The notes under the pieces: generated by a model
What the model saw: only the letters and a program-made list of their open reading frames with translations
The model's database searches: none
What the model was told of the DNA's origin: nothing
Assembly (NCBI GenBank): GCA_902601315.1
Contig: CACKMS010000007.1
Location: 1 to 64,000 of the forward strand
Length of the DNA stretch: 64,000 nt
Source of the DNA: an uncultured Pelagibacteraceae bacterium
GTDB taxonomy: Bacteria; Pseudomonadota; Alphaproteobacteria; Pelagibacterales; Pelagibacteraceae
Direction of reading: 5' to 3'
Made by a program: the position numbers and the translations under genes
Part shown: positions 14,857 to 45,960 of the stretch, piece after piece
How the letters are laid out: each line of letters begins with the position of its first letter
How positions within the stretch are numbered: the stretch's first letter is position 1

Positions 14857-15586
14857 TATTTAAAACTATAGATCTAAGTTTATCAACAATTTGTTTATTA
14901 TTTAATTTTTCTTTTTGTAGCGAGGAGATTTTTTCACCAATACTAAGCTTATATGTTCGATTTTTTTTATTTATTAACTCTCTTATAAATAAAATTCTTC
15001 TTAAGTTATTATTTATAAAGCCTACTGTTTGAAAGAATAAGCTATTCTTACCAAAAAAACGTACAGGAATAATTTCCGCCTTGGTTTTATTAATTATAGA
15101 TCCAATTAATGGTTTCCATCTTCTTTCATTAGCCTCATTAAAAATAAAAGAAGATGTAGCAACTTCTCCTGAAGGAAAAGTTATTAAAATTCCATTTGCA
15201 TTTAAGTGTTCAATTGCCTTCTTTTTAGAAATGATATTTTTTTTTATATCCTCTGTAAATTTTGAAAATTTAATTGGCAATAAGTACTCTCTTATTTGAT
15301 CAATTTGTGAAAGTTCTTCGTTAATTAAAATTTTATAATCCTGTCGGATATCACAAATTATTGAACAAATTATAAGTCCATCTAATAATCCAAATGGATG
15401 ATTTGCAACTATTATACTTGATCCTTCTTTAGGTATATTGGCAACATTTTCTGCAATGTAATTAATGTTAAAAATATCTAAAGTTTTTTTCCAAAAATTC
15501 TTTGACTGTTTTAACTCTTCATAATTAACTTTATATATAGATTTGATTTCATCAATTTTTGAAATTTTCTCTAAAATTTGCTGCAT
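14849..15586 (-). CDS. 1-acyl-glycerol-phosphate acyltransferase family protein (OlsA-like)
   Basis: IIVANHPFGLLDGLI (NHX4D-type) and FPSGEVATS acyltransferase motifs; adjacent to OlsB-like. Confidence 0.75.
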   Translation of the reverse strand: MQQILEKISKIDEIKSIYKVNYEELKQSKNFWKKTLDIFNINYIAENVANIPKEGSSIIVANHPFGLLDGLIICSIICDIRQDYKILINEELSQIDQIREYLLPIKFSKFTEDIKKNIISKKKAIEHLNANGILITFPSGEVATSSFIFNEANERRWKPLIGSIINKTKAEIIPVRFFGKNSLFFQTVGFINNNLRRILFIRELINKKNRTYKLSIGEKISSLQKEKLNNKQIVDKLRSIVLNIN

Positions 15587-16413: not shown

Positions 16414-16446
16414 GAATCCTTAGTAAAAGATTCACATGTATTTAAT

Positions 16447-16475
16447 GTTAAATAATTATTTCAAATTCATTACAA
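16447..16475 (-). promoter_or_regulatory. Pho-box-like array upstream of olsB-like gene
   Basis: Minus strand TTGTAAT-GAAT-TTGAAAT-AATT-ATTTAAC. Confidence 0.45.
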
Positions 16476-16574
16476 AGTTTAATTATAATTTACATTAAAA
16501 TTAAACAATATCTTAATAATTTTTAAACAAATGTTTTACATAAATATTTTAAAGTAATCTAATTAGGAAATATT

Positions 16575-16907
16575 ATGAGTTACAGTAAAATTGAAAAAGC
16601 AACCAAAGAATTTTTTAAATCAAATATTGAACCTTTCAAAGATATAGTTTCTAAGGAAGTACATTGTGAGGCTATACATAAATCAAGTTTTGGCGGTAAC
16701 ATAAAGAACTACGATGAAATGATGGAAATGATAAAAGATGCGATGACTAGTTGGAACACAGAACCAGAAATTAAGTGTTTAATTGATACTCCAGAGGTCG
16801 TAGTTAAAACTGTTAAAGGATTTGATCCTAACTTTACTTATCTTGAAATAGATCAACTTAAAGATGGTAAAATTATTAAACATTTTTATGGCAAAGTTCC
16901 AAAATAG
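16575..16907 (+). CDS. SnoaL/NTF2-like small protein
   Basis: Size and fold-like pattern (FxxxxLEIDQLKDGKIIKHF) of NTF2-like proteins; ATG start. Confidence 0.55.
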   Translation: MSYSKIEKATKEFFKSNIEPFKDIVSKEVHCEAIHKSSFGGNIKNYDEMMEMIKDAMTSWNTEPEIKCLIDTPEVVVKTVKGFDPNFTYLEIDQLKDGKIIKHFYGKVPK

Positions 16908-16912
16908 ATAAA

Positions 16913-17030
16913 TCAAGGTTTAAGGGATTATGGCGGAAGATAATCGGCGTAAACTGTGGACTTTAATAAAGGAAGCTGGCGATTATTTACGGGATTAGAG
17001 GTTCACATTAATCCACATTAAACGGCATTA
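16913..17030 (+). repeat. Element copy 1: micro-ORF plus inverted repeat plus three 10-bp iterons
   Basis: Ungapped alignment to 31903-32020; about 79/95 identical over 16936-17030 by hand count. Confidence 0.85.
16930..16998 (+). CDS. Putative 22-aa micro-ORF MAEDNRRKLWTLIKEAGDYLRD
   Basis: Paralogous micro-ORF of identical length at 31920-31988; differences include synonymous/conservative codons. Confidence 0.4.
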   Translation: MAEDNRRKLWTLIKEAGDYLRD

Positions 17031-17155
17031 TCCCACACGAACAAAATCATCTTTTGATAGACCAAAAAAAATAAACCTTTATTAACAAATTTTTCATTAC
17101 AAATACCGATAATGATAGCAGGTATAATTAAATATTCTTATACAACCGGAATATT

Positions 17156-18295
17156 TTAACTTACTTGGATTCCGTTTGACCAAACGTTTTTCACAACAGG
17201 TAAATTATGATAAACTTTAAACCTTACTAAATCTGCTCTTTTATTGTTATCAATTAAACCCCTATCATTTAAATTTGTAGCTATAGATGGAGCGTGACTA
17301 GCTGCTGCAAATGCTTTTGGAAGATTATCAATTTCTAAACCCCATTTGACAACAGATATAATTAATGATGATGGAATATAATCTGAGCTTAAGATATCTA
17401 AACAATCATTTTCTAAGAGTTCTTTTGCAGATATATTGCCAGAGTGTGAACCTCCTCTAAGTAAATTAGGAGATCCCATCATAACTTTAATATTGTAATC
17501 TTTAGAAGTTTTGGCTGCTTCTAATGTTGTTGGAAATTCAGCCAATTTTACTCCATATTTATTTGAATTATGAACATCATTTTCTGTGGTATCGTCGTGA
17601 CTAGCCAAAATACAATCATATGATGATTTAAATTCTAAAATTTTATCTATGTGTTTCTTGCTATTTTTTTTTGAAAGATTTTTTAAGTGATCAAAATGAA
17701 TTTCCATTTCTTTTTCTGTCATACCGTATTTAATTGAAAGATATTCTTTGTACTTATCTATAACTCTAAATTGCCTCTGACCTGGTGTATGATCCATTAT
17801 ACTAATCAGTTTTACATCGTGAGTTTCATTGTATTCGTCTAATTCATCAATCAAATTCTCCGAACAAGTTTCAGCTCTTAAATGTATTTTGTGATCAATC
17901 TTGAGAATATTATCTTTTTTAAAACTTGAAATTATATCCGAACAGTTTTTTGCATATTTTTTATATTTTCCTGTTTTTTCAATAGAACCAACTCTTAATG
18001 CATCAAAAACTGTAGTTATTCCAACAGATGCTAATTCTCTATCATGAGATAAAATTGCATTTTCTACTGGAAATGAAACTTTAGGTCTTGGTGTCATGTG
18101 TCTTTCAAGATTGTCAGTATGTAATTCAACCAATCCTGGCGAAATATAATCTTTTTCGCAGTCTATAGAACTTTTGTTATTACTTAATCCACTACTTATA
18201 TCGACAATCTTGTTATCTTTAATCCTGATATGACCATGAACGATTTCATCTTTTTTAATTATCATGGCATTGTTTAAAATATATTCATGCATCAC
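17156..18295 (-). CDS. phnM: Alpha-D-ribose 1-methylphosphonate 5-triphosphate diphosphatase PhnM
   Basis: SPGLVELHTDNLERHMTPRP, SIMDHTPGQRQF, LASHDDTT, SSDYIPSSL motifs. Confidence 0.95.
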   Translation of the reverse strand: MMHEYILNNAMIIKKDEIVHGHIRIKDNKIVDISSGLSNNKSSIDCEKDYISPGLVELHTDNLERHMTPRPKVSFPVENAILSHDRELASVGITTVFDALRVGSIEKTGKYKKYAKNCSDIISSFKKDNILKIDHKIHLRAETCSENLIDELDEYNETHDVKLISIMDHTPGQRQFRVIDKYKEYLSIKYGMTEKEMEIHFDHLKNLSKKNSKKHIDKILEFKSSYDCILASHDDTTENDVHNSNKYGVKLAEFPTTLEAAKTSKDYNIKVMMGSPNLLRGGSHSGNISAKELLENDCLDILSSDYIPSSLIISVVKWGLEIDNLPKAFAAASHAPSIATNLNDRGLIDNNKRADLVRFKVYHNLPVVKNVWSNGIQVS

Positions 18296-18314
18296 TTTTT
18301 AATACACATGAATT

Positions 18315-18332
18315 GTTACAAATATTTTAAAT
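18315..18332 (-). promoter_or_regulatory. Pho-box-like site upstream of phnM
   Basis: Minus strand ATTTAAA-ATAT-TTGTAAC. Confidence 0.35.
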
Positions 18333-18367
18333 TAGAGAAAATTTATATAAGTATTATAAGTTGAATT

Positions 18368-19081
18368 ATGAAAAAATATTCTAGATACGCTATTTATTAT
18401 GCACCTCCAAAAGAGAGTAGTCTAGAAGAATTTGGCAGATATTGGTTCGGTTGGGATCCACTTAATGCAAAGTTAATAAATAACAAACATAGAATTAATT
18501 ATCTAAACAGATTTGGAATTAAAAACTTAATAAACATAGATAAAAATGTTTTAATTGCAAAGAAATATGGGTTTCACGGCACACTTATTCCTCCTTTTAA
18601 ACTAAACAAAAATTATAGTACCAATACATTATTTAAAAAAACTGAGGAAATAGCAAAAAAATTCAAAAAATTTAAATTTTATAAATTTAAATTAAAAAAA
18701 ATGAATAATTTTTATGCTTTTGTTCAAAATAAAAAAAATAATAACATTAATAAGTTATCAAATAGACTAGTTAGAGAATTATTTAAATTTAGGTCACCTC
18801 TTACAAAAAAAGAAATTGATAGAAGAAATCCCTCTAAACTAAGTAAATTACAATTAAATATTTTATATAAATGGGGATACCCCTATTTAATGTCAGAATT
18901 TAATTTCCATATGACCCTTGCATCAGAGGTCACAGGAAACAAATTGTACCTTGAGTTAAAAAAAATTGAAAGAAACAAAGAAATCATTTTAAATGAAATA
19001 AATAATTTTGATAAAATATATATATTTGGTGAAAACCAAAAAGGAATGTTTGAGAATTTAGAAAATTTTTCACTTAGCTAA
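18368..19081 (+). CDS. DUF1045 / phosphonate-operon-associated 2H-type phosphoesterase
   Basis: RYAIYYAPPKESSLEEFGRYWFGWDP start; two HxTL motifs (FHGTLIPPF, FHMTLAS). Confidence 0.88.
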   Translation: MKKYSRYAIYYAPPKESSLEEFGRYWFGWDPLNAKLINNKHRINYLNRFGIKNLINIDKNVLIAKKYGFHGTLIPPFKLNKNYSTNTLFKKTEEIAKKFKKFKFYKFKLKKMNNFYAFVQNKKNNNINKLSNRLVRELFKFRSPLTKKEIDRRNPSKLSKLQLNILYKWGYPYLMSEFNFHMTLASEVTGNKLYLELKKIERNKEIILNEINNFDKIYIFGENQKGMFENLENFSLS

Positions 19082-19606
19082 AATTATTTTTTTCAATTTA
19101 TTTGCACCTATAGCTATTGATTTATTATTATTTATAGTAATTATATTTTTCGGTAGTAAATTAATTTTTCTTTTTATCCTTTTATTAATTGATTTTTTGT
19201 CTTCTCTAGCTCGATTTACAAGTCTCTTTTTAATAATTGTTGATGGGGCAAAAATATTAATTATTTTAACGTTATTAACTTTTTTTTTTACTTTAAAAAG
19301 TACTTTTCTTGATCCATTAAAAATTACTGTTTTACCTTCCTCTATTTTTTTTATTTCCTTAAATGGAATACCGTATGAAAAACCATGAGCTTTCCAGTAA
19401 ACAAAGAAATGTTTTTTTAAAATCTTATCTTCAAAATTTTTAATTGATATGCTGTAATGATCTTCATTTTTAATATCTTTTTTCCTAGTAATGTACCTTT
19501 TTACCAAAATGGAATTAGGAATTTTTTTAATTACTTTTTTTAATAAAGTATCTTTTCCTGATCCTGATGGTCCAACGACTACGATAAGCTGACCGTTATT
19601 TTGCAT
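19070..19606 (-). CDS. phnN: Ribose 1,5-bisphosphate phosphokinase PhnN
   Basis: VVVGPSGSGKDTLL P-loop, guanylate-kinase-like; position after phnL. Confidence 0.9.
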   Translation of the reverse strand: MQNNGQLIVVVGPSGSGKDTLLKKVIKKIPNSILVKRYITRKKDIKNEDHYSISIKNFEDKILKKHFFVYWKAHGFSYGIPFKEIKKIEEGKTVIFNGSRKVLFKVKKKVNNVKIINIFAPSTIIKKRLVNRAREDKKSINKRIKRKINLLPKNIITINNNKSIAIGANKLKKIILAK

Positions 19607-20273
19607 CTGATATTTTTGTAATATCTATTTCCCTAGCATTTAAATATTTACGTGAATATTCATCATGAAAAATACCAATTATTGAAGATCCACTATCTTT
19701 TTTTTCATTAATCAAATTCAAAACAATATCTTTGTTAACACTATCTAAACTAGCAGTTGGTTCATCTAGTAATAAACATGGATAATTTCTAATCAGTCCC
19801 CTAGCAACATTAACTCTTTGTTGTTCTCCACCTGAAAAAGTTAGTGGCGATAAATTCCATAAGTTTTTATCTATATTAAGTTTTAGTAAAATTTTTTCAG
19901 CTTTTTCACGAACTTCATCTTGATCTGAATTTATTTCTAATAAGGGCTCCATAACAATTTCAATTGTAGGAACACGAGGTATCACTCTTAGAAATTGACT
20001 AACATATCCTATTATATTTTTTCTAAGTTCAATAATATTTCTCGGATATGTATGATCTATGTTGTGATTATTAATTTTAATTTGTCCTGATTGAAAAACA
20101 TAGTTTCCGTAAATCATTTTTAAAATACTAGACTTTCCAACACCTGATGGTCCTGTTAACGCTACAATTTCTCCAGGATTAATTTTCAAATTCAAATTAT
20201 TAAAAACTAATATGTTTGTTTTGCCCTGATTATGAAGTGTAAATTTTTTTGTAATTTTATTTAGTTCAATCAT
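19596..20273 (-). CDS. phnL: C-P lyase system ABC-type protein PhnL
   Basis: GPSGVGKSS, FSGGEQQRVNVARG, LLLDEPTASLD; order in cluster. Confidence 0.93.
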   Translation of the reverse strand: MIELNKITKKFTLHNQGKTNILVFNNLNLKINPGEIVALTGPSGVGKSSILKMIYGNYVFQSGQIKINNHNIDHTYPRNIIELRKNIIGYVSQFLRVIPRVPTIEIVMEPLLEINSDQDEVREKAEKILLKLNIDKNLWNLSPLTFSGGEQQRVNVARGLIRNYPCLLLDEPTASLDSVNKDIVLNLINEKKDSGSSIIGIFHDEYSRKYLNAREIDITKISDAK

Positions 20274-20275
20274 AT

Positions 20276-21043
20276 TTAAACCTGTAATACTGAACTAACT
20301 AATAACTGAGTATAAGAATGTTGCGGATCATCTAATACCTGATCACAAAGTCCAGACTCAACAGCCTCCCCATTTTTCATAACAATAATTTTATCAGCTA
20401 ACAATCTAATCACTGCTAAATCGTGAGAAACGATTACAACTGATAAATTTAATTCTCTAACTAATTTTCTTAACAAATCTAAAATTTTTGCTTGAACAGA
20501 AACATCAAGACCTCCTGTTGGTTCGTCCATGAAAATTATTTTAGGACTCGTAACCAAATTTTTTGCTATTTGTAATCTTTGCAACATTCCACCAGAAAAT
20601 GTTCTTGGAAAATCATCTACTCTACTTTTATCGATTTCTACTTTATCTAACCATTTAAAAATAGTTTGCCTAATATTTCCATAATTTCTTTGTCCAATCG
20701 ACATTAATCTTTCACTAATATTTCCACCAGCACTTACATCTAATCTTAAACCGTCTCTAGGATTTTGGTGAACAAAAGCTAATTCAGTTCTTATCAATAA
20801 CCTTTTCAATGACTCAGATATTTCTAGAAAATCAATCGTTTCATTACCTGTTTCAATTAAGATTTTTCCACTATCAGGAATAAGATTGCCTGATATGGAA
20901 TTTATAAAAGTTGTTTTTCCTGAGCCAGATTCTCCTACTACACCAACGACTTCCCCAGGATATAATGTCAAATTCATATTTTTGCATCCCACTTGATTAC
21001 CGTAATATTTGTTTAAATTATGAACTGACAAAATTGGTTGCAT
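20276..21043 (-). CDS. phnK: C-P lyase system ABC-type protein PhnK
   Basis: GESGSGKTT, FSGGMLQRLQIAKNL, FMDEPTGGLDVSVQ. Confidence 0.94.
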   Translation of the reverse strand: MQPILSVHNLNKYYGNQVGCKNMNLTLYPGEVVGVVGESGSGKTTFINSISGNLIPDSGKILIETGNETIDFLEISESLKRLLIRTELAFVHQNPRDGLRLDVSAGGNISERLMSIGQRNYGNIRQTIFKWLDKVEIDKSRVDDFPRTFSGGMLQRLQIAKNLVTSPKIIFMDEPTGGLDVSVQAKILDLLRKLVRELNLSVVIVSHDLAVIRLLADKIIVMKNGEAVESGLCDQVLDDPQHSYTQLLVSSVLQV

Positions 21044-21925
21044 TTAATTATTTTCCATTCTTTGATTACAATAATTTGTATCTGAACATATAAATGATCT
21101 ATTACCGTCATCATCAGTAATTATTTCATCTAAAAAACTCTCATTTGATCCACAAATAGAACATTTATGAGGTGCCTTTGAGGGATCAAATGGATAATCC
21201 TCAAAATCAAGACTCGTTACTTCAGTATATGGTGGTATTGCATAAATTCTTTGCTCTCTTCCTGCTCCAAATAATTGAATAGCAGGGTTATTGTTCATTT
21301 TTGGGTTATCAAATTTTGGAATAGGTGATGGGTCCATTATATATCTTTCATTTGTCTTTACTGGATAAGCATATGCTGTTTCTATATGACCATTTTTGGT
21401 AATATCTTCATATAACTTTACATGCATAATTCCATATTCTGATAGTGCATGCATTTTTTTAGTTTCTTGATATCTTGGTTCTAAAAACGCAAGAGGTTCT
21501 GGTATTGGAACTTGATAAACAAGTATTTGTTTTTCTTTTAACTTTTCTTCTGGAATTCTGTGTCTTGTCTGAATTATCGATGCTTGGCTTGTTTTTTCTG
21601 TGGTCTCAATATTAGCAGTTTTTTTAAAGAAATTTCTAATTGAAACTGCGTTTGTAGTATCATCTGCTCCTTGATCAATAACTTTTATCACATCGTCAGT
21701 TGTTAAACATGACGATGTTACTTGAACCCCTCCTGTTCCCCATCCATATGGCATAGGCATTTCTCTAGATGAAAATGGAACTTGATAACCTGGTATGCAA
21801 AGAGCTTTAATCAAAGCTCTTCTTATCATTCTTTTTGTATTTTCGTCTAAATAAGCAAAATTATATATTTCATCTTGAGCTGCAACATCAGTTTTTTTAT
21901 TTTTAAATTTAAGTACGTTGTTCAT
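21044..21925 (-). CDS. phnJ: Alpha-D-ribose 1-methylphosphonate 5-phosphate C-P lyase PhnJ
   Basis: AFLEPRYQETKKMHALSEYG; C-x2-C-x21-C-x5-C cysteine pattern matching the PhnJ Fe-S/catalytic cysteines. Confidence 0.96.
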   Translation of the reverse strand: MNNVLKFKNKKTDVAAQDEIYNFAYLDENTKRMIRRALIKALCIPGYQVPFSSREMPMPYGWGTGGVQVTSSCLTTDDVIKVIDQGADDTTNAVSIRNFFKKTANIETTEKTSQASIIQTRHRIPEEKLKEKQILVYQVPIPEPLAFLEPRYQETKKMHALSEYGIMHVKLYEDITKNGHIETAYAYPVKTNERYIMDPSPIPKFDNPKMNNNPAIQLFGAGREQRIYAIPPYTEVTSLDFEDYPFDPSKAPHKCSICGSNESFLDEIITDDDGNRSFICSDTNYCNQRMENN

Positions 21926-22988
21926 TTTTTTTATACTCTTCTCTAATTTTTCTTACTAAATCCAATTCCGCTTGAAAATCTACATAATGAGGTAATTTGA
22001 TATGTTCTAAAAAACCTGTGGCTTGAATATTATCACAATGAGATATAACAAATTCTTCATCTTGAGCAGCAACACCCAAATACTCCTCACCAAATTCTTT
22101 CCATCTCATTGATCTATCAACTAAAGCCATAGAAATAGCTTTTCTTTCTAATTGACCAAAAACTAAACCATATCCACGGGTAAATTGAGCAGGTATTTTT
22201 TTACTACCTTTAAATTGGTTTACTGACTCACACTCAGTAAACATGACATCAGCAATATTTATTTCTATTCCTAATTCTGGAATTTCAAATTGAACCTCAA
22301 CGTAACCAGTTCTTAATTCACCAACAAATGCATGATTTCTAGCATACCCTCTCTGTGTTGAATAAGCTAAACCAAGAAGAAAACCTTCATCTCCTCTTGA
22401 AAGAGATTGCAATCGTTCAGATCTTGTTAAAGGAAAATTAATTGGGTTTCTTGTAATATCTTTAGATGTCTTGCCACTAGGTATTTCTTTCTGAATTAAT
22501 CCTTCTTTATTTAAAAAGCTTAAAACATGTGGGATTTCTTTATCATCATATTTTTCAATCTTAGCTTTTTCATACTCTCCATCAGCAAGAAGCTTGAAAT
22601 CAAGTAAACGGTGTGTGTAGTCAAATGTTGGGCCTAACTTTTGTTTACCTGGGATATCTTTAAATGTTGCAGATATTCTTCTTAGACATAACATTTTGCC
22701 AGTTTCGATAGGTTTGCTTGAACCAATTCTAGGTAAAGTAGTTCTATAGGCTCTCATTAGAAAAATTGCTTCAATCAAGTCACCTCTAGACTGTTTGATT
22801 GCAAGAGCAGACAAATCTTTGTCATATAAAGATCCTTCTGACATAACTCTATCAACACTTAAAGTTAGTTGTTCACTAATTTGTTTAATATTTAGTTCTG
22901 CTATATTTACATCCCCTCTTCTTATTTCGGATAACCAGGAATGTGCGTTATTTATTGCCTTTTCCCCACCTTTTACTGATACATACAT
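21909..22988 (-). CDS. phnI: C-P lyase complex subunit PhnI
   Basis: MYVSVKGGEKAINNAH start; RGYARNHAFVGELRTGYV. Confidence 0.96.
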   Translation of the reverse strand: MYVSVKGGEKAINNAHSWLSEIRRGDVNIAELNIKQISEQLTLSVDRVMSEGSLYDKDLSALAIKQSRGDLIEAIFLMRAYRTTLPRIGSSKPIETGKMLCLRRISATFKDIPGKQKLGPTFDYTHRLLDFKLLADGEYEKAKIEKYDDKEIPHVLSFLNKEGLIQKEIPSGKTSKDITRNPINFPLTRSERLQSLSRGDEGFLLGLAYSTQRGYARNHAFVGELRTGYVEVQFEIPELGIEINIADVMFTECESVNQFKGSKKIPAQFTRGYGLVFGQLERKAISMALVDRSMRWKEFGEEYLGVAAQDEEFVISHCDNIQATGFLEHIKLPHYVDFQAELDLVRKIREEYKKNEQRT

Positions 22989-22989
22989 T

Positions 22990-23544
22990 TTATAGCTCTC
23001 CTATTTTCAATGATCTTGGTATTGAATAAAATTTATCATTATCAACAAAATAAAAATCAAGTCCTAATGGAAATTGCTGGTTATTTTTTTTTATAACCTC
23101 TCTATCAGGTAAAAATATACTTTTAGAACTTTTAATACCAGGGCCAGAAATTATGGCATTTGGTTTTTCAAATTGGGACTGGCAAATAATTGTACACGAT
23201 TGATCAGGATTTTGCTCGTCCCCCTTTTTAAATTCATCTAATGGTAAAAGATCATCCCAAGTACCAATTGCAAAATTTGCATTTTTTTTATCTGTAATGT
23301 TTGCACCTGTATTAAATTTAATCCAATCAATAGTTTCTTGATTGTTAACTTCACCACCTAAAAAAATATTTGAATAACTATCACAAAAAGTTTTTATTAT
23401 TGAACAACTAGCTGAAAACATATTCGAAGGGGGATCTATATTTTTTAATGTCTCAATTGAACCGGGATATGAGGTTGCAAACAAAATACTTCTAAAATAA
23501 TCAGCACTTACTTGAGAATTATTTTTTTTAGAAACAACTTCCAT
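22990..23544 (-). CDS. phnH: C-P lyase complex subunit PhnH
   Basis: PGSIETL, SGPGIKSS, QFPLGLDFYFVD family pattern; order. Confidence 0.92.
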   Translation of the reverse strand: MEVVSKKNNSQVSADYFRSILFATSYPGSIETLKNIDPPSNMFSASCSIIKTFCDSYSNIFLGGEVNNQETIDWIKFNTGANITDKKNANFAIGTWDDLLPLDEFKKGDEQNPDQSCTIICQSQFEKPNAIISGPGIKSSKSIFLPDREVIKKNNQQFPLGLDFYFVDNDKFYSIPRSLKIGEL

Positions 23545-23547
23545 AGA

Positions 23548-23991
23548 TTATTTATCCTCACCTCTTACCAAGGTAAAAAAATCAACTTTAGTAGCTTCTG
23601 TTTTAGATAATATTTCATTTCTTTTGTTATTTTTATATTTAATTAATTTATCAATTATATTTCTTTTAATTATTTCTTTTTTTTCAGTTTGCATCAATGC
23701 ATCACACAAAGCTGCAATTTTGGATTTATATTTATTTCTACCTTGAACATAACCATGTCCTTGAATTTTTTTATCTAAACTTAATGAACATCTCGTTATA
23801 GTTACTTCTCCAACATTAAAATTATCACCTGTGACGCCTGCTTTTCCTTGAACCATAACACTGCCAATCTCAGGTTCTCTTAACCAATTATATTCTATTT
23901 TCATATTTAAATTGTCCCAAAGCGATATTAGATAATTTTCATCTGCTGTTGCTAAATAACTTAACCATTGTTTTCTTGATTTATTTTTCAT
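23548..23991 (-). CDS. phnG: C-P lyase complex subunit PhnG (ORF track opens at 24003 with TTG; ATG near 23991 preferred)
   Basis: REPEIGSVMVQGKAGVTGDNFNVGEVTITRCSL, GYVQGRNKYKSKIAALCDAL. Confidence 0.92.
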   Translation of the reverse strand: MKNKSRKQWLSYLATADENYLISLWDNLNMKIEYNWLREPEIGSVMVQGKAGVTGDNFNVGEVTITRCSLSLDKKIQGHGYVQGRNKYKSKIAALCDALMQTEKKEIIKRNIIDKLIKYKNNKRNEILSKTEATKVDFFTLVRGEDK

Positions 23992-23993
23992 AA

Positions 23994-24017
23994 TACTATA
24001 CAACTAGACAAGTACTA
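23994..24017. promoter_or_regulatory. Candidate PhnF (GntR/HutC type) operator between phnF and phnG
   Basis: TACTATACAACTAGACAAGTACTA; two TTG(T)(C/A)TAG half-sites on the minus strand. Confidence 0.4.
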
Positions 24018-24057
24018 AAATTAAAAATAATTTCAATATATTATTTATTAAAATTTT

Positions 24058-24768
24058 ATGACAACAAAAGATTTGCTTTGGAAGGAAATATACAATTCAA
24101 TCAAAAGAGAAATTGTTTTAAATAAGTACAAAATTAATAAAAAGTTAGATTCTGAGAATGACTATGCAAAACAATTCAATGTCAATAGACACACTATAAG
24201 AAGAGCTTTTAAAGAACTTAAAGATGATAATTTAATATATTCAAAAAGAGGTCTTGGAGTATTTGTTAAATCATCAAAAATTAATTACTCAATTAGTAAA
24301 AACGTACGATTTACTGAGAATATACTTCAAGAAAACCAATCAGTAAGAATTGAAATAAAAAGTTTTGATATTGCTGAATGCAATCTTTTTGAAAAAAAAG
24401 AACTCAACTTAAAAAAAAATGACAAAGTTACACGCATAAATAGCATAGGTTTTGTCAACAATTCACCTTCTGTAATAACTTTCAGATCGATTCCTTATAA
24501 AAAATTTCCAAAATTTATTAATTATTTTGTTAAAAAACAATCAGTAACCAAAGCTTTTAATTTATTGAATATCAAACTAATTAAAAGATCAAAAACTCTA
24601 ATCAATGCTGAAATTGCAGACAAAATAAAATCAAATTTATTAAATATAAATGAGGGGGAAGCACTATTAAAAACTACATCTGTTAATGTCGATTTTAAAA
24701 ACAATCCTATAGAGTTAAGTGAAAGTTATTTTATTGGATCTAAAATTCAATTTTTAATAAAAAATTAG
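24058..24768 (+). CDS. phnF: GntR-family regulator, PhnF
   Basis: N-terminal wHTH (YAKQFNVNRHTIRRAFKELKDDNLIYSKRGLGVFV) and UTRA-like C-terminal domain; divergent from phnG. Confidence 0.88.
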   Translation: MTTKDLLWKEIYNSIKREIVLNKYKINKKLDSENDYAKQFNVNRHTIRRAFKELKDDNLIYSKRGLGVFVKSSKINYSISKNVRFTENILQENQSVRIEIKSFDIAECNLFEKKELNLKKNDKVTRINSIGFVNNSPSVITFRSIPYKKFPKFINYFVKKQSVTKAFNLLNIKLIKRSKTLINAEIADKIKSNLLNINEGEALLKTTSVNVDFKNNPIELSESYFIGSKIQFLIKN

Positions 24769-24799
24769 ATTTTCTACCTTAGGTTTAAATTTCATATAA

Positions 24800-24850
24800 C
24801 TTAAACAAAATTTAAAAGATTCATTAATAATATTTTAACATTTATTAAAG
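24800..24850 (+). promoter_or_regulatory. Extended Pho-box-like array (5 units, 11-bp period) upstream of phnC
   Basis: CTTAAAC-AAAA-TTTAAAA-GATT-CATTAAT-AATA-TTTTAAC-ATTT-ATTAAAG. Confidence 0.5.
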
Positions 24851-24875
24851 ATTAGAGGGTTAACAAATTCTTCAA

Positions 24876-25700
24876 ATGATTATTGAAAAAGTTAACAAAT
24901 TTTTCGGTGATAATCATGCCGTTAAAAACGTTTCTTTTGAGGTTAACAAACCTCAAATGATAGGAATCATAGGTAGATCTGGGGCTGGTAAATCAACATT
25001 ACTAAGAATTATAAATCGACTTACCGACGCAACAGATGGGTCTATTAAAATTGAAGGTCAAAATATTCTAGATTTAAAAAGTAAGGAAAAGAGATCATGG
25101 CAAAGAAACTGTGCAATGATTTTTCAACAATTTAATTTAGTTCCACGATTAGATGTTCTAACAAATGTAATATTAGGCAGATTAAATTATCAGGGCTCAT
25201 TTAGAGCATCTTTAAAAATGTTTTCTCGAGATGAAAGAGCTGATGCTCTGATTTTACTCAATAACTTAGGTATGGCTAACACTGCCCTTCAAAGAGCTGA
25301 AACGTTATCTGGAGGTCAACAGCAACGTGTAGCTATATGTAGAGCTTTGATGCAAAATCCTAAAATGATTTTAGCAGATGAACCAATTGCATCTTTAGAT
25401 CCAATGAATGCAAGAATGGTAATGGAATCATTAAGAAAAATTCATGACGAAAAAAATTTAACAGTTATTTCAAATCTTCATACACTTGATACAGCAAAAA
25501 CTTATTGTGATCGAATTATTGGAATGAAAGATGGTGAAATAGTCTTTGATGATTTGCCTGAAAAATTATCACATAAACTTGCAAGAGAAATTTATGGTGC
25601 AGAGGCTGATGAAGCTTTTGAGCCACAAGTAACATCTACAGAGCTTAAAACAAAAAATAAATTAAATGGAGATGTTGAGAAAGAATTTGCAACTGCATGA
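24876..25700 (+). CDS. phnC: Phosphonate ABC transporter ATP-binding protein PhnC
   Basis: [35 protein letters not shown]. Confidence 0.95.
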
Positions 25701-25760
25701 GATCAATAACTCATCGTTACAAATAAGTCGTTAGACTAAAATTATAAAAAGGAGATAATT

Positions 25761-26711
25761 ATGTTTAATAAACTAACAAGAGTTATTGCACTTTTGGCTA
25801 TGGTGTTTTTTTCAACTCAAGCTAATGCAGTAACTTACACAGGTCCAAAAATGGACTTAAGTAAATACCAACCAGAATTTAGAGTTGGTTTTTTAGGTGA
25901 CGAAGCAGCTCAAGATATTATAGCTAGAAATGAATGTTTCATGCCGTATATCGAAGCCGCTTATGGTGTACCAGCTAAATTTTTTACTTTTAAAGACTAC
26001 GCTGGAACAATGGAGTCGATGCTAGGTGGTAATCTAGATTACACTTGGTTCGGTTCTTCAGGATATGCGGGTATGTATTTAAAAGATCCAACTGCAGTAG
26101 TACCAGTACTAACAAGAATGCAGCCAACTGGTGATATGGGTTACTACTCTGTTGCAGTAGCAACTAAATCATCTGGAATTAAATCAATGGAAGACCTTAA
26201 AGGTAAATCCTTTGGTTGGGCTGACCCTAACTCTACATCAGGTTTTTTAATTCCGTCAATTGAATTAAAGGCTATGGGTATGGATCCAGATACATATTTT
26301 TCAAAAACACAGTTTTCTGGAGGACATGAAAACAATGTATTAGCGGTAATGAATGGTGATGTTGATGCTGGTGTAACATGGGTATCTGGTGTTGGTAGCT
26401 GGGAAGAAGGATATTCGTCAGGGAATTTAAGAAAAATGGTTGATAAAGGGATTTTAAATATGGACGACATTGTTCAAATTTGGTCTTCAAAATTAATTCC
26501 TAATGGTCCAATTGTGATGCCTACTTTTTTACCTGTTAGAGCACACCAAGTAATGATTGGTTTAAAGCAATGGATACACGAGAACGATCCAAAATGTAGC
26601 GAAAACGTTGCAAACGGGATTGTAAAAAAATGGGTTCCGGTGGATCATTCTTTTTACGAGTCAGTTGTAGCTGCAAGAAAAGCTAAAATTGAAGCGCAAA
26701 AAAATAATTAA
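25761..26711 (+). CDS. phnD: Phosphonate ABC transporter substrate-binding protein PhnD
   Basis: Signal peptide; TFKDYAGTMESMLGGNLDYTWFGSSGYAGMY; synteny. Confidence 0.95.
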   Translation: MFNKLTRVIALLAMVFFSTQANAVTYTGPKMDLSKYQPEFRVGFLGDEAAQDIIARNECFMPYIEAAYGVPAKFFTFKDYAGTMESMLGGNLDYTWFGSSGYAGMYLKDPTAVVPVLTRMQPTGDMGYYSVAVATKSSGIKSMEDLKGKSFGWADPNSTSGFLIPSIELKAMGMDPDTYFSKTQFSGGHENNVLAVMNGDVDAGVTWVSGVGSWEEGYSSGNLRKMVDKGILNMDDIVQIWSSKLIPNGPIVMPTFLPVRAHQVMIGLKQWIHENDPKCSENVANGIVKKWVPVDHSFYESVVAARKAKIEAQKNN

Positions 26712-26728
26712 TTAAACCCCCTATAATT

Positions 26729-26757
26729 AGAGGCAAAGACTGTAAATCTTTGCCTCT
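26729..26757 (+). terminator. Hairpin between phnD and phnE (processing/attenuation hairpin; weak T-tract)
   Basis: AGAGGCAAAGA-CTGTAAA-TCTTTGCCTCT, 11-bp perfect stem. Confidence 0.7.
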
Positions 26758-26775
26758 GATTTATTTTTAAAAATT

Positions 26776-27630
26776 ATGGCAAAAGCCTTACCTGCCAACC
26801 TAGAACAAATTGAAGTTAATTTAAAAAAATTAACAAACCAGAGAACTAGGTCCTCGCTACTTGGAATTGCAATTCTAATATTAATTTTTTTTGGTGGTAC
26901 CTTGGTATCGTTAGAAGCAAATGCAGGGTCTTTTGGAAGAGGTATAGCTAATTTTTTTAACTACCCTAGAGATTTATTTGTAGACACTTTTGAGATGGGA
27001 TGGAAATATTGGCCAAGAGTTATTAAGTATATTCCTGAATTAATTATTACTTTAAATATTGCTTTATTTTCAACTTCTATAGGTTTTATTTTAGCAATTA
27101 TATTTGCAATTTTTTCAAGTAGGAACCTAATTAGAAACAAAAGAGTTATTCAATTTACAAAATTTTTAATGGATGTGACAAGATCATTTCCAACATTAAT
27201 AATAGCAATGGTGTTTTTATATCTAATGGGTAAATCATCTTTACCAGCTGTAATTGCTATAACAATACATACTGCTGGAGCACTTGGTAAATTATTTACA
27301 GAGGCTATAGAAAATTGTGATGGAAAACCTATTGAAGGTTTAAGTTCTGTTGGTGCAACTTGGACACAGAAGATAAGATTTTCAGTTCTTCCCCAGGTAC
27401 TACCTTTGTTTTTAAGTTATGGAATATTGAGGTTAGAAATTAATGTTAGAGAATCTACAATATTAGGTTTTGTTGGTGCAGGTGGAATTGGAGAAATGTT
27501 AGCGGCTCTAATTCAGTGGAATTATGGAGCTGATGTTTTAGCGTGTATGCTCTTACTGGTTGGTACGATAATTGCATTAGATTATTTGTCTGCATATTGG
27601 AGACATAAATTAATTGGAGCAAATCAATGA
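26776..27630 (+). CDS. phnE: Phosphonate ABC transporter permease PhnE (1)
   Basis: PhnE permease pattern GALGKLFTEAIENCDGKPIEGLSSVGA. Confidence 0.95.
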   Translation: MAKALPANLEQIEVNLKKLTNQRTRSSLLGIAILILIFFGGTLVSLEANAGSFGRGIANFFNYPRDLFVDTFEMGWKYWPRVIKYIPELIITLNIALFSTSIGFILAIIFAIFSSRNLIRNKRVIQFTKFLMDVTRSFPTLIIAMVFLYLMGKSSLPAVIAITIHTAGALGKLFTEAIENCDGKPIEGLSSVGATWTQKIRFSVLPQVLPLFLSYGILRLEINVRESTILGFVGAGGIGEMLAALIQWNYGADVLACMLLLVGTIIALDYLSAYWRHKLIGANQ

Positions 27631-29027
27631 GTTCTAGTTTAGCTATTCAAAGAGAAAATATTCGTAAATTATTTCCTGACACATTTAAACAAGCCAGAAA
27701 GAGTAGATTAAGAGGCCAAATAATTTTTTTTCTCGTCTTAGTATATTTAATAGTAGGTTTTTTTACTTTAGATGTTGTTGATATCCCAAAAAAATGGAAA
27801 CCACAAAATGCTGCTATGTTTGTCTTAGACACATATGCACACAAAGATCATGTAACAATGAAATGGGAAAATCATGAGGATATTAAAATAGCTTTTGAAG
27901 GAAATTATAGAAGTGTTTATGGAAGAGATAATCTTGATAAATCAATTCCAGATTGGTTTTACAAAAATTCTGATAATGTTGGCAATGTAGTTGAGTTTAA
28001 TAATAAAGGTAAGGCAATATTATACAAAGATAAAGTCGAGATTGTAAATTTTCCAAAATATGAGAGAGATTTTACCATAAAATTAAATTCTAATGGTAAA
28101 CCTTACCTTGTAGGTTCAGAGGATTTGGTCATAGAAGATTTAAAAGGTTTTAGAATCACAGAAAATAGAGTTGAATTTAGACCCACTTTGTATGAGAGAA
28201 TTCAAGTATATCCAAAAAAAGTTGAAATTCATCGTTACAGTATCGGATGGAAATATTTTTGGTTTGATTTCTCAAGTCCTTTAGAACCATATAGCTTTTT
28301 CGAAGCATTAGGTTTGACTTTTTCTAAAGAAAGAGTTGTTCCTGAAATGTCTAATTTAAAACTTTTCTTAACAGAGATTAAGGATAATGAAGCATTTATG
28401 CACGGTAGAGTTTGGTGGGCAATGCTCGAAACAATAGTTATGGCTGTACTTGGGACAATGTTTGCTACAGTAATGGCTCTGCCCTTGTCATTCCTTGCTG
28501 CATACAACGTTACACCTATTAAAGCTCTAAGATTTACGTTAAGAAGATTATTTGATACTTTAAGAGGAATAGACTTTTTAATTTGGAGTTTAATATTTTT
28601 AAGAGCTTTTGGTCCAGGACCCTTCACTGGTATTTTTGCGATTGGTTTTACTGATACAGGTACTTTAGGTAAATTATATTCTGAAGCAATTGAAAATACT
28701 GAGAAGAAACAACAAGAAGGAGTTCAATCTACAGGGGCTAGCAAATTTCTACAACATAGATTTGGTATAATTCCTCAAATACTTCCAATTTTTGTATCTC
28801 AATCCTTATACTATTTAGAGTCAAATACTAGAGGAGCCGTAATAATAGGTGCAATGGGCGCAGGAGGAATTGGTTTACAATTTTTAGGTGCACTAGGTAC
28901 TGGAAATGATTTTGAAAATGTCGCCTACATGGCAATATTAGTTTTGGCTGTAGTAATATTTATGGATAGATTATCTGCTTGGCTTAGAAGAATATTAATT
29001 GGATCAGATCAATTAATTGTAAGGTAA
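27627..29027 (+). CDS. phnE: Phosphonate ABC transporter permease PhnE (2)
   Basis: GTLGKLYSEAIENTEKKQQEGVQSTGA; tandem with first phnE. Confidence 0.95.
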   Translation: MSSSLAIQRENIRKLFPDTFKQARKSRLRGQIIFFLVLVYLIVGFFTLDVVDIPKKWKPQNAAMFVLDTYAHKDHVTMKWENHEDIKIAFEGNYRSVYGRDNLDKSIPDWFYKNSDNVGNVVEFNNKGKAILYKDKVEIVNFPKYERDFTIKLNSNGKPYLVGSEDLVIEDLKGFRITENRVEFRPTLYERIQVYPKKVEIHRYSIGWKYFWFDFSSPLEPYSFFEALGLTFSKERVVPEMSNLKLFLTEIKDNEAFMHGRVWWAMLETIVMAVLGTMFATVMALPLSFLAAYNVTPIKALRFTLRRLFDTLRGIDFLIWSLIFLRAFGPGPFTGIFAIGFTDTGTLGKLYSEAIENTEKKQQEGVQSTGASKFLQHRFGIIPQILPIFVSQSLYYLESNTRGAVIIGAMGAGGIGLQFLGALGTGNDFENVAYMAILVLAVVIFMDRLSAWLRRILIGSDQLIVR

Positions 29028-29094
29028 ATAGAAAAAATACCTTTATCAAAAATTTTTCTAGAAATTTTAATTTAAGAATTTAAAAAGATAAAAA

Positions 29095-29523
29095 TCAATC
29101 TTTCCAGAATTTCCACCAAGGTTTTTCTTCCTTTGTTATCTCATTATTGTCAACAACAACTTTAGTTATAGATGGATCCTCTCCATCTACTAATCCTGCT
29201 CTAGCAGTTGTTTTAGCGTCTTCTAATTTTAGTTTTGCCTCAAAAACTCTGTTTTCATTACACAATTTCATGCCCTCTTTCATTAATGCTTCTGCCTCAG
29301 ATGCTTTTTCGGGACTAGATCTTGAAATATCATTTTTAACAGTGGCTCTTAACATAAGTACTCCAGGGTCTTCACAATTCCCTATTTCATTTTTAAATGT
29401 ATCCTCAGTATTTTGTGAATAACTACTGCCGGCTTGTTGCTCTGTTATTTTAGCATGATTGTCAGCTTGAGTAATAGAAATTGTGGATAAAGTTAATATA
29501 AATGAGATTAGGATTTTATTCAT
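29095..29523 (-). CDS. Secreted protein of unknown function (C-terminal KPWWKFWKD)
   Basis: ORF with signal peptide; Pho-box-like array directly upstream. Confidence 0.7.
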   Translation of the reverse strand: MNKILISFILTLSTISITQADNHAKITEQQAGSSYSQNTEDTFKNEIGNCEDPGVLMLRATVKNDISRSSPEKASEAEALMKEGMKLCNENRVFEAKLKLEDAKTTARAGLVDGEDPSITKVVVDNNEITKEEKPWWKFWKD

Positions 29524-29534
29524 AATAATCTATT

Positions 29535-29563
29535 AACTTACTTTTGTTAAAAAAATGTTAAAG
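29535..29563 (-). promoter_or_regulatory. Pho-box-like array upstream of the secreted unknown
   Basis: Minus strand CTTTAAC-ATTT-TTTTAAC-AAAA-GTAAGTT. Confidence 0.6.
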
Positions 29564-29577
29564 AAATAAAAAAATTT

Positions 29578-30750
29578 GTGAAATATTTGTCTGCATTTTT
29601 AATAGGTATATCAGTTACCTTTTGTTACAGCAGTTGTATGTACCTGTTCTCAGCGTTGTTGCTAACTTGGGAAAACGAACTAGGTATTTCAAGAAACAAC
29701 TTAACTTTTATTTATTCCCTAGGCTTAGTTGTGCATAGTTTACTTTTACCTTTTCTAGGTAAGATTGTAGATAGAAATCTAAGTTTTCCAATGATGTGGA
29801 CCAGTCCTATACTGTTAGGACTAAGTGTAATTTATCTTTCATCAGTAGATACATATGGTGGATTTTTACTTGCTTGGATACTTGTCAGTGCAACCTCGGG
29901 TGGCTGTCTTTATACGATGCTTTTTAGTGTCATTACTATTAATTTAAAATCAAAGGCCAAAACATCTATTGCAATAATTACTTTGTTTGCTGGATTTGCA
30001 AGCACATACACATTTCCTACTGCTACTTATTTAACAGAACAATATGACTGGAGGTTTACTGTATTTATTTTTGGAATATTAAATATATTGATTAGTTCAC
30101 CAGCTAATTATTTTGGTTTCAAAAATATAATTATAAAAGAATTTAAAAAAATTGAAAAGAAAACAGATCAAAATTCAAAGCTTAAAATAATACTTAAAGA
30201 TTATAGATTTTGGTTATTTAGTTTTTCATTGTTTGTTATTGGATTTAATATTGGTGCTATTACAACTCATGTAATTCCAATGTTGCAGGAAAAAGGGATG
30301 AGTCTATCCCAAGCTGTATTGACAGCATCTCTGTTTGGACCAGGACAAGTAATAGGTAGAATTTTAGTTATGATATATGGAGGTGATAAGTCAAATTTAA
30401 AATTATTTGTAATTTGTTTTTACTCGATGGTAATTGGAATGATATTTTTATACTTTATAAATATTAATCATTACTTAGCATTTTTATTTGTTTTATTTAA
30501 TAGTTCAGCATATGGCAGTATGGCTATTTTAAAACCTTTGGTTCAAAATGATACTTTTGGCCAAAAAAACTTTGGCAATATTCATGGTATTTTAGCTTTA
30601 CAATATATGATTGGTAGTATTGCTGGTCCATGGATAGGTTCCTTGATATGGAATGTAGGGGGGTATGATTTGTTAATATTAGTATTTTTTGTTTTAGCAA
30701 TATTTGGTAACTCGACAGCAATTTTTCTAAACAAAAAAAAATTTATTTAA
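29578..30750 (+). CDS. MFS transporter (GTG start)
   Basis: 12-TM MFS pattern, FLGKIVDRN loop. Confidence 0.88.
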   Translation: MKYLSAFLIGISVTFCYSSCMYLFSALLLTWENELGISRNNLTFIYSLGLVVHSLLLPFLGKIVDRNLSFPMMWTSPILLGLSVIYLSSVDTYGGFLLAWILVSATSGGCLYTMLFSVITINLKSKAKTSIAIITLFAGFASTYTFPTATYLTEQYDWRFTVFIFGILNILISSPANYFGFKNIIIKEFKKIEKKTDQNSKLKIILKDYRFWLFSFSLFVIGFNIGAITTHVIPMLQEKGMSLSQAVLTASLFGPGQVIGRILVMIYGGDKSNLKLFVICFYSMVIGMIFLYFININHYLAFLFVLFNSSAYGSMAILKPLVQNDTFGQKNFGNIHGILALQYMIGSIAGPWIGSLIWNVGGYDLLILVFFVLAIFGNSTAIFLNKKKFI

Positions 30751-31294
30751 AACTGCTTTCCACATGTTTATAAAAAAAATTTATATTTGGAATTTCTAAA
30801 TTTTCAACTTTAGCAAGATCATCATATTTCCTTAGTCTAACTGCATCTTGCATAAAAGGTTGTTTAATAAATTCGTTTGCCTCTTCTTCAGAAAAACTAC
30901 CACCTTGAACATCCAAACTTCTTTTTGAGGCAATAGATAGAGCCTCATAATATCCTTTCTCATAATAAACTAAATATCTTTTAGCTGGCACATGCCCTTT
31001 AATTAGTCTTGTAACATCTTCTGGAAAAAATTTAGAAAGAAAAAAGGATCCTGAATTCTCATGCTTTTTATCTACTCCTTTTTTGATGGCTTCTTTATCA
31101 TTATTAATTAAGTGACCAATATCATGGAATAGAGCTGCAGTTATAAAAAAATTGTTTTCATTATTTTTTTTTGCCAATAATGCACATTGAATTGCATGTT
31201 CTAGTTGTGAAACTTTTTCATTTCCATATTGTTTGTCTGATCCAATTTCTTCTATAATTTTAAATAAATTGGTTATATTTGATTTAATATCCAC
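30743..31294 (-). CDS. PhnZ-like HD-domain mixed-valent diiron oxygenase (phosphonate-degradation HDIG family)
   Basis: QLEHAIQCA, AALFHDIGH, IKGHVPAKRYLVY, QGGSFSEEEANEF, AVRLRKYDDLAK pattern of PhnZ/TIGR03276-type proteins. Confidence 0.85.
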   Translation of the reverse strand: MDIKSNITNLFKIIEEIGSDKQYGNEKVSQLEHAIQCALLAKKNNENNFFITAALFHDIGHLINNDKEAIKKGVDKKHENSGSFFLSKFFPEDVTRLIKGHVPAKRYLVYYEKGYYEALSIASKRSLDVQGGSFSEEEANEFIKQPFMQDAVRLRKYDDLAKVENLEIPNINFFYKHVESSFK

Positions 31295-31316
31295 AATGTT
31301 ATTTTAAATTAAGAAT

Positions 31317-31334
31317 GTTTCAGTTTTGTTACAA
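31317..31334 (-). promoter_or_regulatory. Pho-box-like site upstream of the phnZ-like gene
   Basis: Minus strand TTGTAAC-AAAA-CTGAAAC. Confidence 0.5.
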
Positions 31335-31391
31335 TTTAGATTTAGCATTCATTAAGTATAGAAAAATAATATATAGTAATAAAAGTTAAAA

Positions 31392-31841
31392 ATGAAAAAA
31401 CTTTTATTTGTTTGTACCGGCAATTCTCATAGAAGTATATTGGCTGAAAGTGTAGTTAACAAATATCATAAAGATAAATTTATTGGCTACAGTGCAGGTA
31501 GCAAACCATCTGGAATAATTAATAAATATGTCATTAAATATCTTAATGAAAATAATTTTGATACAAAAAATCTATCTTCTAAAAACTTTAATAAATTTTT
31601 AGATGAAAAAACAATATTTGACCAGGTATTTACCGTATGCAACAATGCCAGTGATGAAGTTTGTCCAGTCTGGCCATCTCCTGAAAAAATAGTTCATTGG
31701 GACATTGAGGATCCTGTTCATATCATTAATGAGTTAGAAAATAGTGATAAACCAAATAAAGAAGAGCTGATTTCAACAGAAATACATAAAACTTATTCCA
31801 ATTTAGAAACCAGAATAAATGATTGGATTAAAAATTATTAG
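31392..31841 (+). CDS. arsC: Low-molecular-weight phosphatase-type arsenate reductase ArsC (copy 1)
   Basis: LFVCTGNSHRSILAE P-loop, TVCNNASDEVCPVWP, HWDIEDP. Confidence 0.85.
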   Translation: MKKLLFVCTGNSHRSILAESVVNKYHKDKFIGYSAGSKPSGIINKYVIKYLNENNFDTKNLSSKNFNKFLDEKTIFDQVFTVCNNASDEVCPVWPSPEKIVHWDIEDPVHIINELENSDKPNKEELISTEIHKTYSNLETRINDWIKNY

Positions 31842-31902
31842 CTTAAAGACTCATCAATTTTACTGTCAAACTAGAACCACAACTAGAACTTTTGGAGATG
31901 TT

Positions 31903-32020
31903 TCAAGGTTTTGTAGTAAATGAATGAAGATAATCGGCGTAAACTCTGGAAAATTATTCAGGAAGCTGGCGATTATTTGCGGGATTAGAGGGACACATTA
32001 TTCTACACTAACCTACATTA
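31903..32020 (+). repeat. Element copy 2: micro-ORF plus inverted repeat plus three 10-bp iterons
   Basis: Ungapped alignment to 16913-17030. Confidence 0.85.
31920..31988 (+). CDS. Putative 22-aa micro-ORF MNEDNRRKLWKIIQEAGDYLRD
   Basis: Paralog of 16930-16998; in-frame stops directly upstream in both copies. Confidence 0.4.
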   Translation: MNEDNRRKLWKIIQEAGDYLRD

Positions 32021-32057
32021 AACTAAAGTATTTATGCGGATACTAAAAAGTTAGCTT

Positions 32058-32153
32058 AAAATAAATCGAGATGATTGTTTAGAATTTGCTAAAAAATATA
32101 GTTGGGAAGAAACAGCAAAAATTTTCTTTAAAAATATTTCACCTAATAACTAA
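32058..32153 (+). pseudogene. 3' stub of glycosyltransferase gene (KINRDDCLEFAKKYSWEETAKIFFKNISPNN*)
   Basis: First 56 bp identical to 14764-14819; the rest is homologous but diverged; no start codon, upstream in-frame stop. Confidence 0.9.
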
Positions 32154-44890: not shown

Positions 44891-45539
44891 CTAAGAATAA
44901 TTTTTTTGCAATATAAACAGCAATTACCATACCAATTAGTTCTGCAACTATATAAAAAGGAGTGTTTAAATAACTTATACCAGTAAAGGACTCTGTGAAT
45001 GTTCTTGCTATTGCAACAGCAGGATTTGCAAAAGAAGTTGAAGAGGTAAACCAATAACCAGCTGTAATATATAACCCAACAGATGCAGCTACAGTAATTT
45101 TACCTGACTTCATGGATCCAAAAATAATGATTATTAGTCCTAATGTTGCAACAATTTCTGATACAAAAATATAGATACCATCTCTTGATTTTGTCGATAA
45201 TTCAAAAATCTGATGTTCAAAAAAGAAATTAGCTAATGCTACACCTAGTAAACATCCAAGTATCTGAGCGGAAATATAAAAGGGTAGAAGTTTTTTTTTT
45301 AACTTTCCTGTAATTGTCATAGCAATACTTACAAATGGATTGAAATGAGCCCCGGATACATCAGCAAATACTGTTATTAGCACAAACAAACCAGCTCCAG
45401 TTGCTATAGTATTTGCAATTAGCATTACCGCTGTATCATTGGTCATATTTTCTGCCATTAAACCTGATCCAACTATGATCATTACGAGAAAGCAACTTCC
45501 AATAAATTCTGAAAGAAAATATTTATTTTTATTTTTCAT
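44880..45539 (-). CDS. MIP-family aquaporin/aquaglyceroporin (AqpS-like, arsenite channel candidate)
   Basis: ADVSGAHFNPFVSIA and SFANPAVAIARTFT loops; adjacent to arsC. Confidence 0.85.
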   Translation of the reverse strand: MKNKNKYFLSEFIGSCFLVMIIVGSGLMAENMTNDTAVMLIANTIATGAGLFVLITVFADVSGAHFNPFVSIAMTITGKLKKKLLPFYISAQILGCLLGVALANFFFEHQIFELSTKSRDGIYIFVSEIVATLGLIIIIFGSMKSGKITVAASVGLYITAGYWFTSSTSFANPAVAIARTFTESFTGISYLNTPFYIVAELIGMVIAVYIAKKLFLEKN

Positions 45540-45960
45540 CTAGCCAATCTTTAATTTTATTACTTATAACATTGAAAGTGTTTCTAATGATTATTTGCTT
45601 TTCTTCATCATTTGCATTTTGAAGTTTTTTTACTGGATCTTCAATATCCCAGTGTATAATTTGATTTTTATCAGGCCAAATAGGACATACCTCATTATTT
45701 GCGTTGTTGCATACTGTTATTACATGATCCATTTTTATTTCTTTATTGATAAATTCTTCAAAGTTTTTAGAACTATAATTAGTTAAATCATAACTTTTAT
45801 TTTTCTCTAAAAAATTTTTTACATCTTCATTGATTTTTCCAGATGGATTACTACCAGCACTAAAAGCATTAAATTTATTTGAGTATTCATTATTAATAAT
45901 ACTCTCAGCAATAATGCTTCTCGCTGAATTTCCTGTGCATACAAATAAAATATTTTTCAT
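45529..45960 (-). CDS. arsC: Low-molecular-weight phosphatase-type arsenate reductase ArsC (copy 2)
   Basis: LFVCTGNSARSIIAES, TVCNNANNEVCPIWP, HWDIEDP. Confidence 0.9.
   Translation of the reverse strand: MKNILFVCTGNSARSIIAESIINNEYSNKFNAFSAGSNPSGKINEDVKNFLEKNKSYDLTNYSSKNFEEFINKEIKMDHVITVCNNANNEVCPIWPDKNQIIHWDIEDPVKKLQNANDEEKQIIIRNTFNVISNKIKDWLDEK

Follow-up and report, generated by a model that had tools for sequence, protein, structure and literature searches.

The two diverged repeats bordering the phosphonate (phn) genes in the window, the 64,000-nt stretch of DNA from an uncultured Pelagibacteraceae bacterium analyzed here as a whole, are very probably attL/attR-type scars of a family of ~9-kb integrative, satellite-like elements of SAR11. 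These elements persist as integrase-less cassettes resembling CIMEs, and in the window the phn genes were caught between two of their scars. How the streamlined SAR11 bacteria, which are very abundant in the ocean, gain accessory genes is poorly explained. The precise site, recombinase, cassette boundary and signature described here can now be searched in any SAR11 genome, and phosphonate use, a climate-relevant trait and a source of methane, is tied to a mobile-element site. A puzzling repeat is thereby recast as a testable recombination system.

The repeat and its parent gene

Copy 1 (16906–17030) and copy 2 (31896–32020) are 77% identical over 125 nt and have in common a 22-codon frame and 10-bp units. 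The frame spans 16930–16998 in copy 1, with the translation MAEDNRRKLWTLIKEAGDYLRD and a stop, the last codons and stop being supplied by the element; in copy 2 it spans 31920–31988, with the translation MNEDNRRKLWKIIQEAGDYLRD and a stop. Most of what the initial annotation had described by eye was reproduced. Its gapless alignment, with 79 of 95 positions identical by hand count, equals the 83% found over the 95-nt core (E = 1.2e-22, far beyond chance), and its seven codon differences, three of them synonymous (CTG/CTC, ATA/ATT, TTA/TTG), stand as counted. The proposed 10-bp periodicity is borne out by 52 unique truncated copies, with a lag-10 identity of 0.68 vs. 0.16–0.37 at the other lags from 5 to 15. 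Frame and 10-bp phase are kept in diverged copies, as had been noted, and mark a real, non-decaying multi-copy element; the window copies are not a recent local duplication, also in agreement with that annotation. Scans of the window with Rfam and for tRNA found nothing at either copy.

The frame had been taken for a free-standing micro-ORF, and this is refuted: it belongs to a 75-aa gene, of which it is the displaced 5′ end. Two forms of the copy are separated on alignment. The intact form runs on into the 75-aa protein (MNKENASKLWKIIQEAGDYLVGQLPDHPNHPKGRNPYAHVAICVKSKFNASYKDIPDEKYDEVIKYIEFLKENPS), and truncated copies agree with the intact gene over its first 20 codons, depart from it at GATTATTTGG, and enter GGGnnnTAGnGG followed by 10-bp units of the form yACAyTAnnn. 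Both window copies are of the truncated form. Truncated copies, intact genes, genes in naive genomes and attP (see below) have in common the core GATTATTTG(G) or near variants of it. Of 300 genomes from the genus, 172 contain copies, as do 76 of 297 in the family sample; the 75-aa gene is present in 92 of the 143 family genomes that are nearly complete, covering seven of eight genera. The records listed for the truncated-copy pattern come without exception from SAR11, and the near relatives named there are uncultured Pelagibacteraceae. Two further copies lie 0.8 kb apart on another contig (C1) of the window's own genome (G000, in which the window is contig C7): a truncated one at 67.5 kb and an intact gene at 66.7 kb. 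The 75-aa protein had no Pfam match above cut-off and weak PHROGs matches alone, one of them to anti-repressors (E = 0.055).

Selection on the micro-ORF, the other claim made from the two copies, was upheld in one respect and not in the other. The dN/dS ratio of truncated starts is indeed below 1 (0.19), but it nearly equals that of the 5′ end of intact genes (0.21; a class for which ORF length served as an additional criterion), so the selection is on the parent gene; these pairwise values are rough because the sequences are related. The remainder of the 75-aa gene has a dN/dS of 0.08. Synonymous divergence (dS) is 0.55 in truncated starts, 0.55 in intact-gene starts and 1.36 in the rest of the gene, and the low dS of the gene start is in keeping with extra constraint, or with the start being replaced often at the attachment site. 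The frame would be kept because the starts were recently severed or are reusable.

Cassette arrays and their arms

Sixty loci were read. At multi-copy loci the truncated copies lie, singly or in tandem, 0.7–7 kb upstream of the intact gene and in the same orientation, so that the intact gene stands at the right end of the array and the truncated copies at the left. The right-end genes are intact 75-aa ORFs, 47 of which were found at full length by script. Naive genomes (L076–L078) have a single intact gene, no arms and a different upstream region. The stretches between copies hold unrelated genes (116 ORFs in 100 clusters), including, according to Pfam, restriction and methylation enzymes, TRAP transport, dehydrogenase and polysaccharide lyase families. 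A Pfam search of 74 cargo proteins showed no integrase among the 25 families listed of 73, and no recombinase stood out in the ORF lists of 12 array loci.

Each cargo is flanked by direct-repeat arms: S2 follows the units, and S1 precedes the next start of the gene. The arms differ among cassettes and agree inside one, at 8.5 of 9 bases over 40 cassettes, compared with a permutation mean of 5.85 and a best value of 6.8 in 10,000 shuffles. Arm S1 is carried by 17 of 60 leftmost copies and by 43 of 52 later ones, as it should be if the native start, once displaced, became the leftmost copy; its presence on the right-end gene is likewise expected if the start of that gene came from a cassette. 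S1 and S2 are mismatched at three loci (L115, L136, and L147), which indicates that arrays have also been rearranged.

Two smaller features of the arrays may be recorded. An empty cassette at L071 (6996–7223) consists of a module with a single arm S, followed directly by the intact gene, as expected of the product of S2 × S1 recombination. In four cassettes (L065, L068, L072, and L082) the cargo often opens with a MKKLLGIVVLGL-like signal peptide, and a shortened repeat of this start stands just before arm S1, followed by TATAGGATTTTATAGGATAACT.

Circular elements and the integrase

Among viral contigs, the pattern scan yielded two 9-kb circular contigs and the integrase search a third (L096, L097, and L106); they are considered circular because their ends overlap by 29–98 nt. 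In all three, a single truncated copy immediately precedes an integrase gene, the first codons of which contain arm S2, and this copy is, on its sequence, the attP. The integrase matches phrog_1 (6e-26) and has a Pfam score of 26.1, just under the cut-off of 27.1. Other proteins of the circles match primase (1.7e-24), RusA-like resolvase (1.4e-11) and, weakly, small terminase (1.7e-5); no capsid match was found among the proteins scanned. No match to the integrase was obtained by tblastn in 50,697 phage records, and the primase gave distant partial matches alone. A sequence search of the PDB found no match, and an AlphaFold2 model of the integrase from three sequences was unusable (pLDDT 33).

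Relatives of the circles help to assign the parts of the site. In one genome (G159), an element of the family with a broken integrase gene ends at an intact 75-aa gene bearing arm S1. Two further circles (L271 and L272) encode integrases 57–59% identical; they retain the units and arms, but their core is another one. Since units and arms stay when the target changes, they are part of the element, and the core is part of the target. The core of these two circles (L271:8400–8560 and L272:8150–8290) is a terminator-like inverted repeat, AAAAGGCGCTTAAATTAAGCGCCTTTT in host genomes. Three of the four regions that hold more distantly related integrases (29–34% identical) contain tRNA-Leu or tRNA-Ser genes, and it is only in such regions that tRNA genes were seen. 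Tandem, near-identical prepilin-like genes (MNRKAFTLIELLVVVAIIGILAAVGVVAYNGYT...) occupy L111:1419–5075, upstream of a related integrase-bearing element. Lambda-like integrases have arm-type sites. By analogy, the SAR11 integrase may bind both the units and the arms.

At any identity, the integrase was found in six of 399 genomes of the genus, and IMG/VR contigs were the only source of intact integrases of the close subfamily. The window's genome (86% complete) yielded no integrase of this family, and no recombinase in a PF00589 search. Complete genomes with arrays have one PF00589 recombinase each, presumably Xer.

The phn block and its island

The phn cargo block (17071–31838, borders the same in most relatives) contains C–P lyase genes including PhnJ, a GntR/UTRA regulator and a phosphonate transporter, and also an MFS transporter, an HD protein and a low-molecular-weight (LMW) phosphatase. 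It lies between copy 1, whose left module is lost past the units, and copy 2, which keeps S1. All flanking parts are on the forward strand. Copy 1 comprises a leader and the severed 5′ end of the 75-aa gene (20 codons; 16906–16989), recognized by homology to the 5′ ends of intact genes in relatives and preceded by no arm S1. Its core CGATTATTTA (16980–16989) marks the divergence of truncated and intact copies, and is followed by the element side GGGATTAGAGG with 10-bp units (16990–17040); the rest of the left module, with arm S2, is missing. On the right, the end of the phn block is fused to the right part of an inter-arm module (31842–31869; remnant CTTAAAGACTCATCAATTTTACTGTCAA; 96% identical to L066 over 71 nt), followed by arm S1 ACTAGAACCACAACTAGAACTTTTGGAGATG (31870–31900), in which two direct repeats stand 12 bp apart. 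The leader and severed 5′ end of copy 2 (31901–31979; matching the start of an intact G284 gene at 95% over 110 nt) include the core CGATTATTTG (31970–31979). The element side CGGGATTAGAGG follows with 10-bp units that are probable integrase arm sites (31980–32033), and then the left part of an inter-arm module (32034–32068), which breaks off at AAAATAAATCG, its junction with a glycosyltransferase fragment.

That fragment, a 95-bp 3′ end on the forward strand (32058–32152), forms the right border of a 17-kb island and is 91% identical to the 3′ end of the complete glycosyltransferase gene at the left border (14764–14858, forward strand). The stretch 14858–32057 is missing from five relatives, in which the flanks are joined. 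The phn block is present in nine other genomes fetched; in eight of them it is at another locus, with no adjoining copy and essentially the same borders. In G214 it occupies the canonical site, directly upstream of the 75-aa gene, and G214 and the window share a right-hand join module, AAAAATTATT followed by ...TAAAGACTCATC or ...TAAGACTCATC. Another genome, G149, is near-identical to the window over 20 kb and for that reason adds no independent evidence. The missing left S2 and intact gene make the pair in the window a rearranged relic. Taken with the locations of phn and the borders of the island, this pair is most likely a relocated array relic with captured cargo, not a regulatory pair.

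Lateral transfer of phosphonate genes in marine plankton has been described for a phnCDE-ubiE operon, recently and non-homologously transferred between Pelagibacter and HIMB59 and adjoined by tyrosine recombinases and tRNA genes (PMC12416821). Elsewhere in the window, LMW phosphatase-like genes at 31392–31841 and 45529–45960 appear related (72% nucleotide identity over 285 nt), the latter lying close to the site that holds the phn block in eight relatives. An exact 42-bp tandem duplication (49688–49771) lies within the gene of a histidine-rich protein of zinc-binding type.

Proposed mechanism and alternatives

In the proposed mechanism, a tyrosine integrase would recombine attP with the 5′ part of the 75-aa host gene at GATTATTTGG. 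Integration would sever the native first 20 codons, the former micro-ORF, after which element DNA with its 10-bp units follows, and an element-borne leader and 5′ end would replace the native start; with this replacement supplied, the 75-aa gene would stay intact. The target gene, the core, the replaced 5′ ends and the matched arms can be read directly from the aligned genomes, as can attP beside the integrase gene, the uninterrupted target genes and the varied cargo. Many copies would have shed the integrase and replication genes and persist as two-ended cassettes, sometimes in tandem; acting in trans, a mobile relative could excise these or add to them. Two such scars would have trapped the 15-kb phn block of the window, the whole now standing in an island and not at the canonical site. 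Excision, transfer, mobilization in trans and packaging of elements or cassettes may be inferred from this organization; no excised cassette circle was seen. A wider proposal is tentative, and somewhat closer to doubt than to belief: that SAR11 has an integron-like exchange platform derived from a phage-satellite integrase, where 9-kb satellites move integrase-less cassettes with replacement 5′ ends in trans and so help to provide the streamlined genomes with accessory genes for restriction-modification and for nutrient use, C–P lyase among them, new cargo being caught by joins between inter-arm modules.

The alternative that survives best, though unlikely, accepts the origin of the repeats as att sites and ascribes their present spread mainly to DNA uptake and homologous recombination across near-identical modules, without integrase. 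The rarity of the integrase gene in genomes where copies are common, the single PF00589 recombinase of array-bearing complete genomes and the mismatch of some arms are in line with it, as is the movement of phn through joins at short homologies. However, leftmost copies without S1, combined with a cassette arm on the right-end gene, are what precise site-specific insertion would be expected to produce, and matched arms at both ends of a cassette favor movement as a unit.

An integron-like system, with the scars as attC sites for a dedicated integron integrase, would account for oriented tandem cassettes with varied cargo at a fixed locus. It is very improbable: no recombinase gene was noticed at the array loci listed, the autonomous 9-kb elements carry attP upstream of an integrase of phage type, and every cassette bears a copy of the 5′ end of the target gene and both arms.

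Still less credible is the regulatory reading of the initial annotation, that a selected micro-ORF with a 10-bp iteron operator controls phn through PhoB or PhnF. Conserved frame and phase, the presence of copies on both sides of phn and a dN/dS below 1 had made it attractive, but the ORF belongs to a larger gene, copies adjoin any cargo, and the units travel with the integrase gene, which they adjoin in free elements. An operator at phn is contradicted by these positions, and regulation of phn by the units also by the eight of nine other phn-bearing genomes fetched that have no copy beside phn. The units, yACAyTAnnn with any cargo, do not match the Pho box (CTGTCAT direct repeats).

Decaying MITE- or IS-like junk, as might be suspected of a short, multi-copy sequence in an AT-rich genome, is just as implausible given the fixed target and junction, the absence of stops from the compared start codons in 112 of 113 copies, the 47 full-length 75-aa ORFs and the integrase of autonomous relatives.

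Comparison with known systems

A literature search found no description of these SAR11 elements or arrays; the original tycheposon and VEIME papers were outside its yield, so this negative is no proof of novelty. Tycheposons, VEIMEs and PICMIs are phage satellites of marine bacteria (PMC11389934; PMC10803314), and the SAR11 elements resemble them in their small size, integrase and primase, small-terminase-like gene, lack of a recognized capsid, and accessory host genes. Occurrence in IMG/VR is no proof of packaging. Unlike tycheposons, the SAR11 elements target a protein gene and not a tRNA gene.

The arrays resemble those of integrons and CALINs in their oriented tandem cassettes and in that some have no recombinase. 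They differ in that no integron integrase was seen, and in that the site appears from its sequence to be an attP/attB core with arms and not an attC hairpin.

CIMEs are decayed elements that keep attL and attR, accrete in tandem and receive related elements by integration (PMC5704250). SAR11 cassettes likewise keep both att ends, 40 of them having both arms. Unlike CIMEs, they seem to descend from a satellite-like and not a conjugative ancestor (no relaxase or T4SS was recognized), their cargo is highly varied, and they supply the 5′ end of their target.

In this last property they approach the dusA-associated genomic islands and prophages, where a tyrosine integrase acts on a protein gene at its 5′ end and the island replaces that end and leaves a remnant of it behind (PMC4482086). 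The SAR11 elements differ in their 75-aa target gene, their host, their tiny size and their arrays of integrase-less cassettes. As at dusA, the SAR11 sites have a new 5′ end from the element together with a remnant of the old one.
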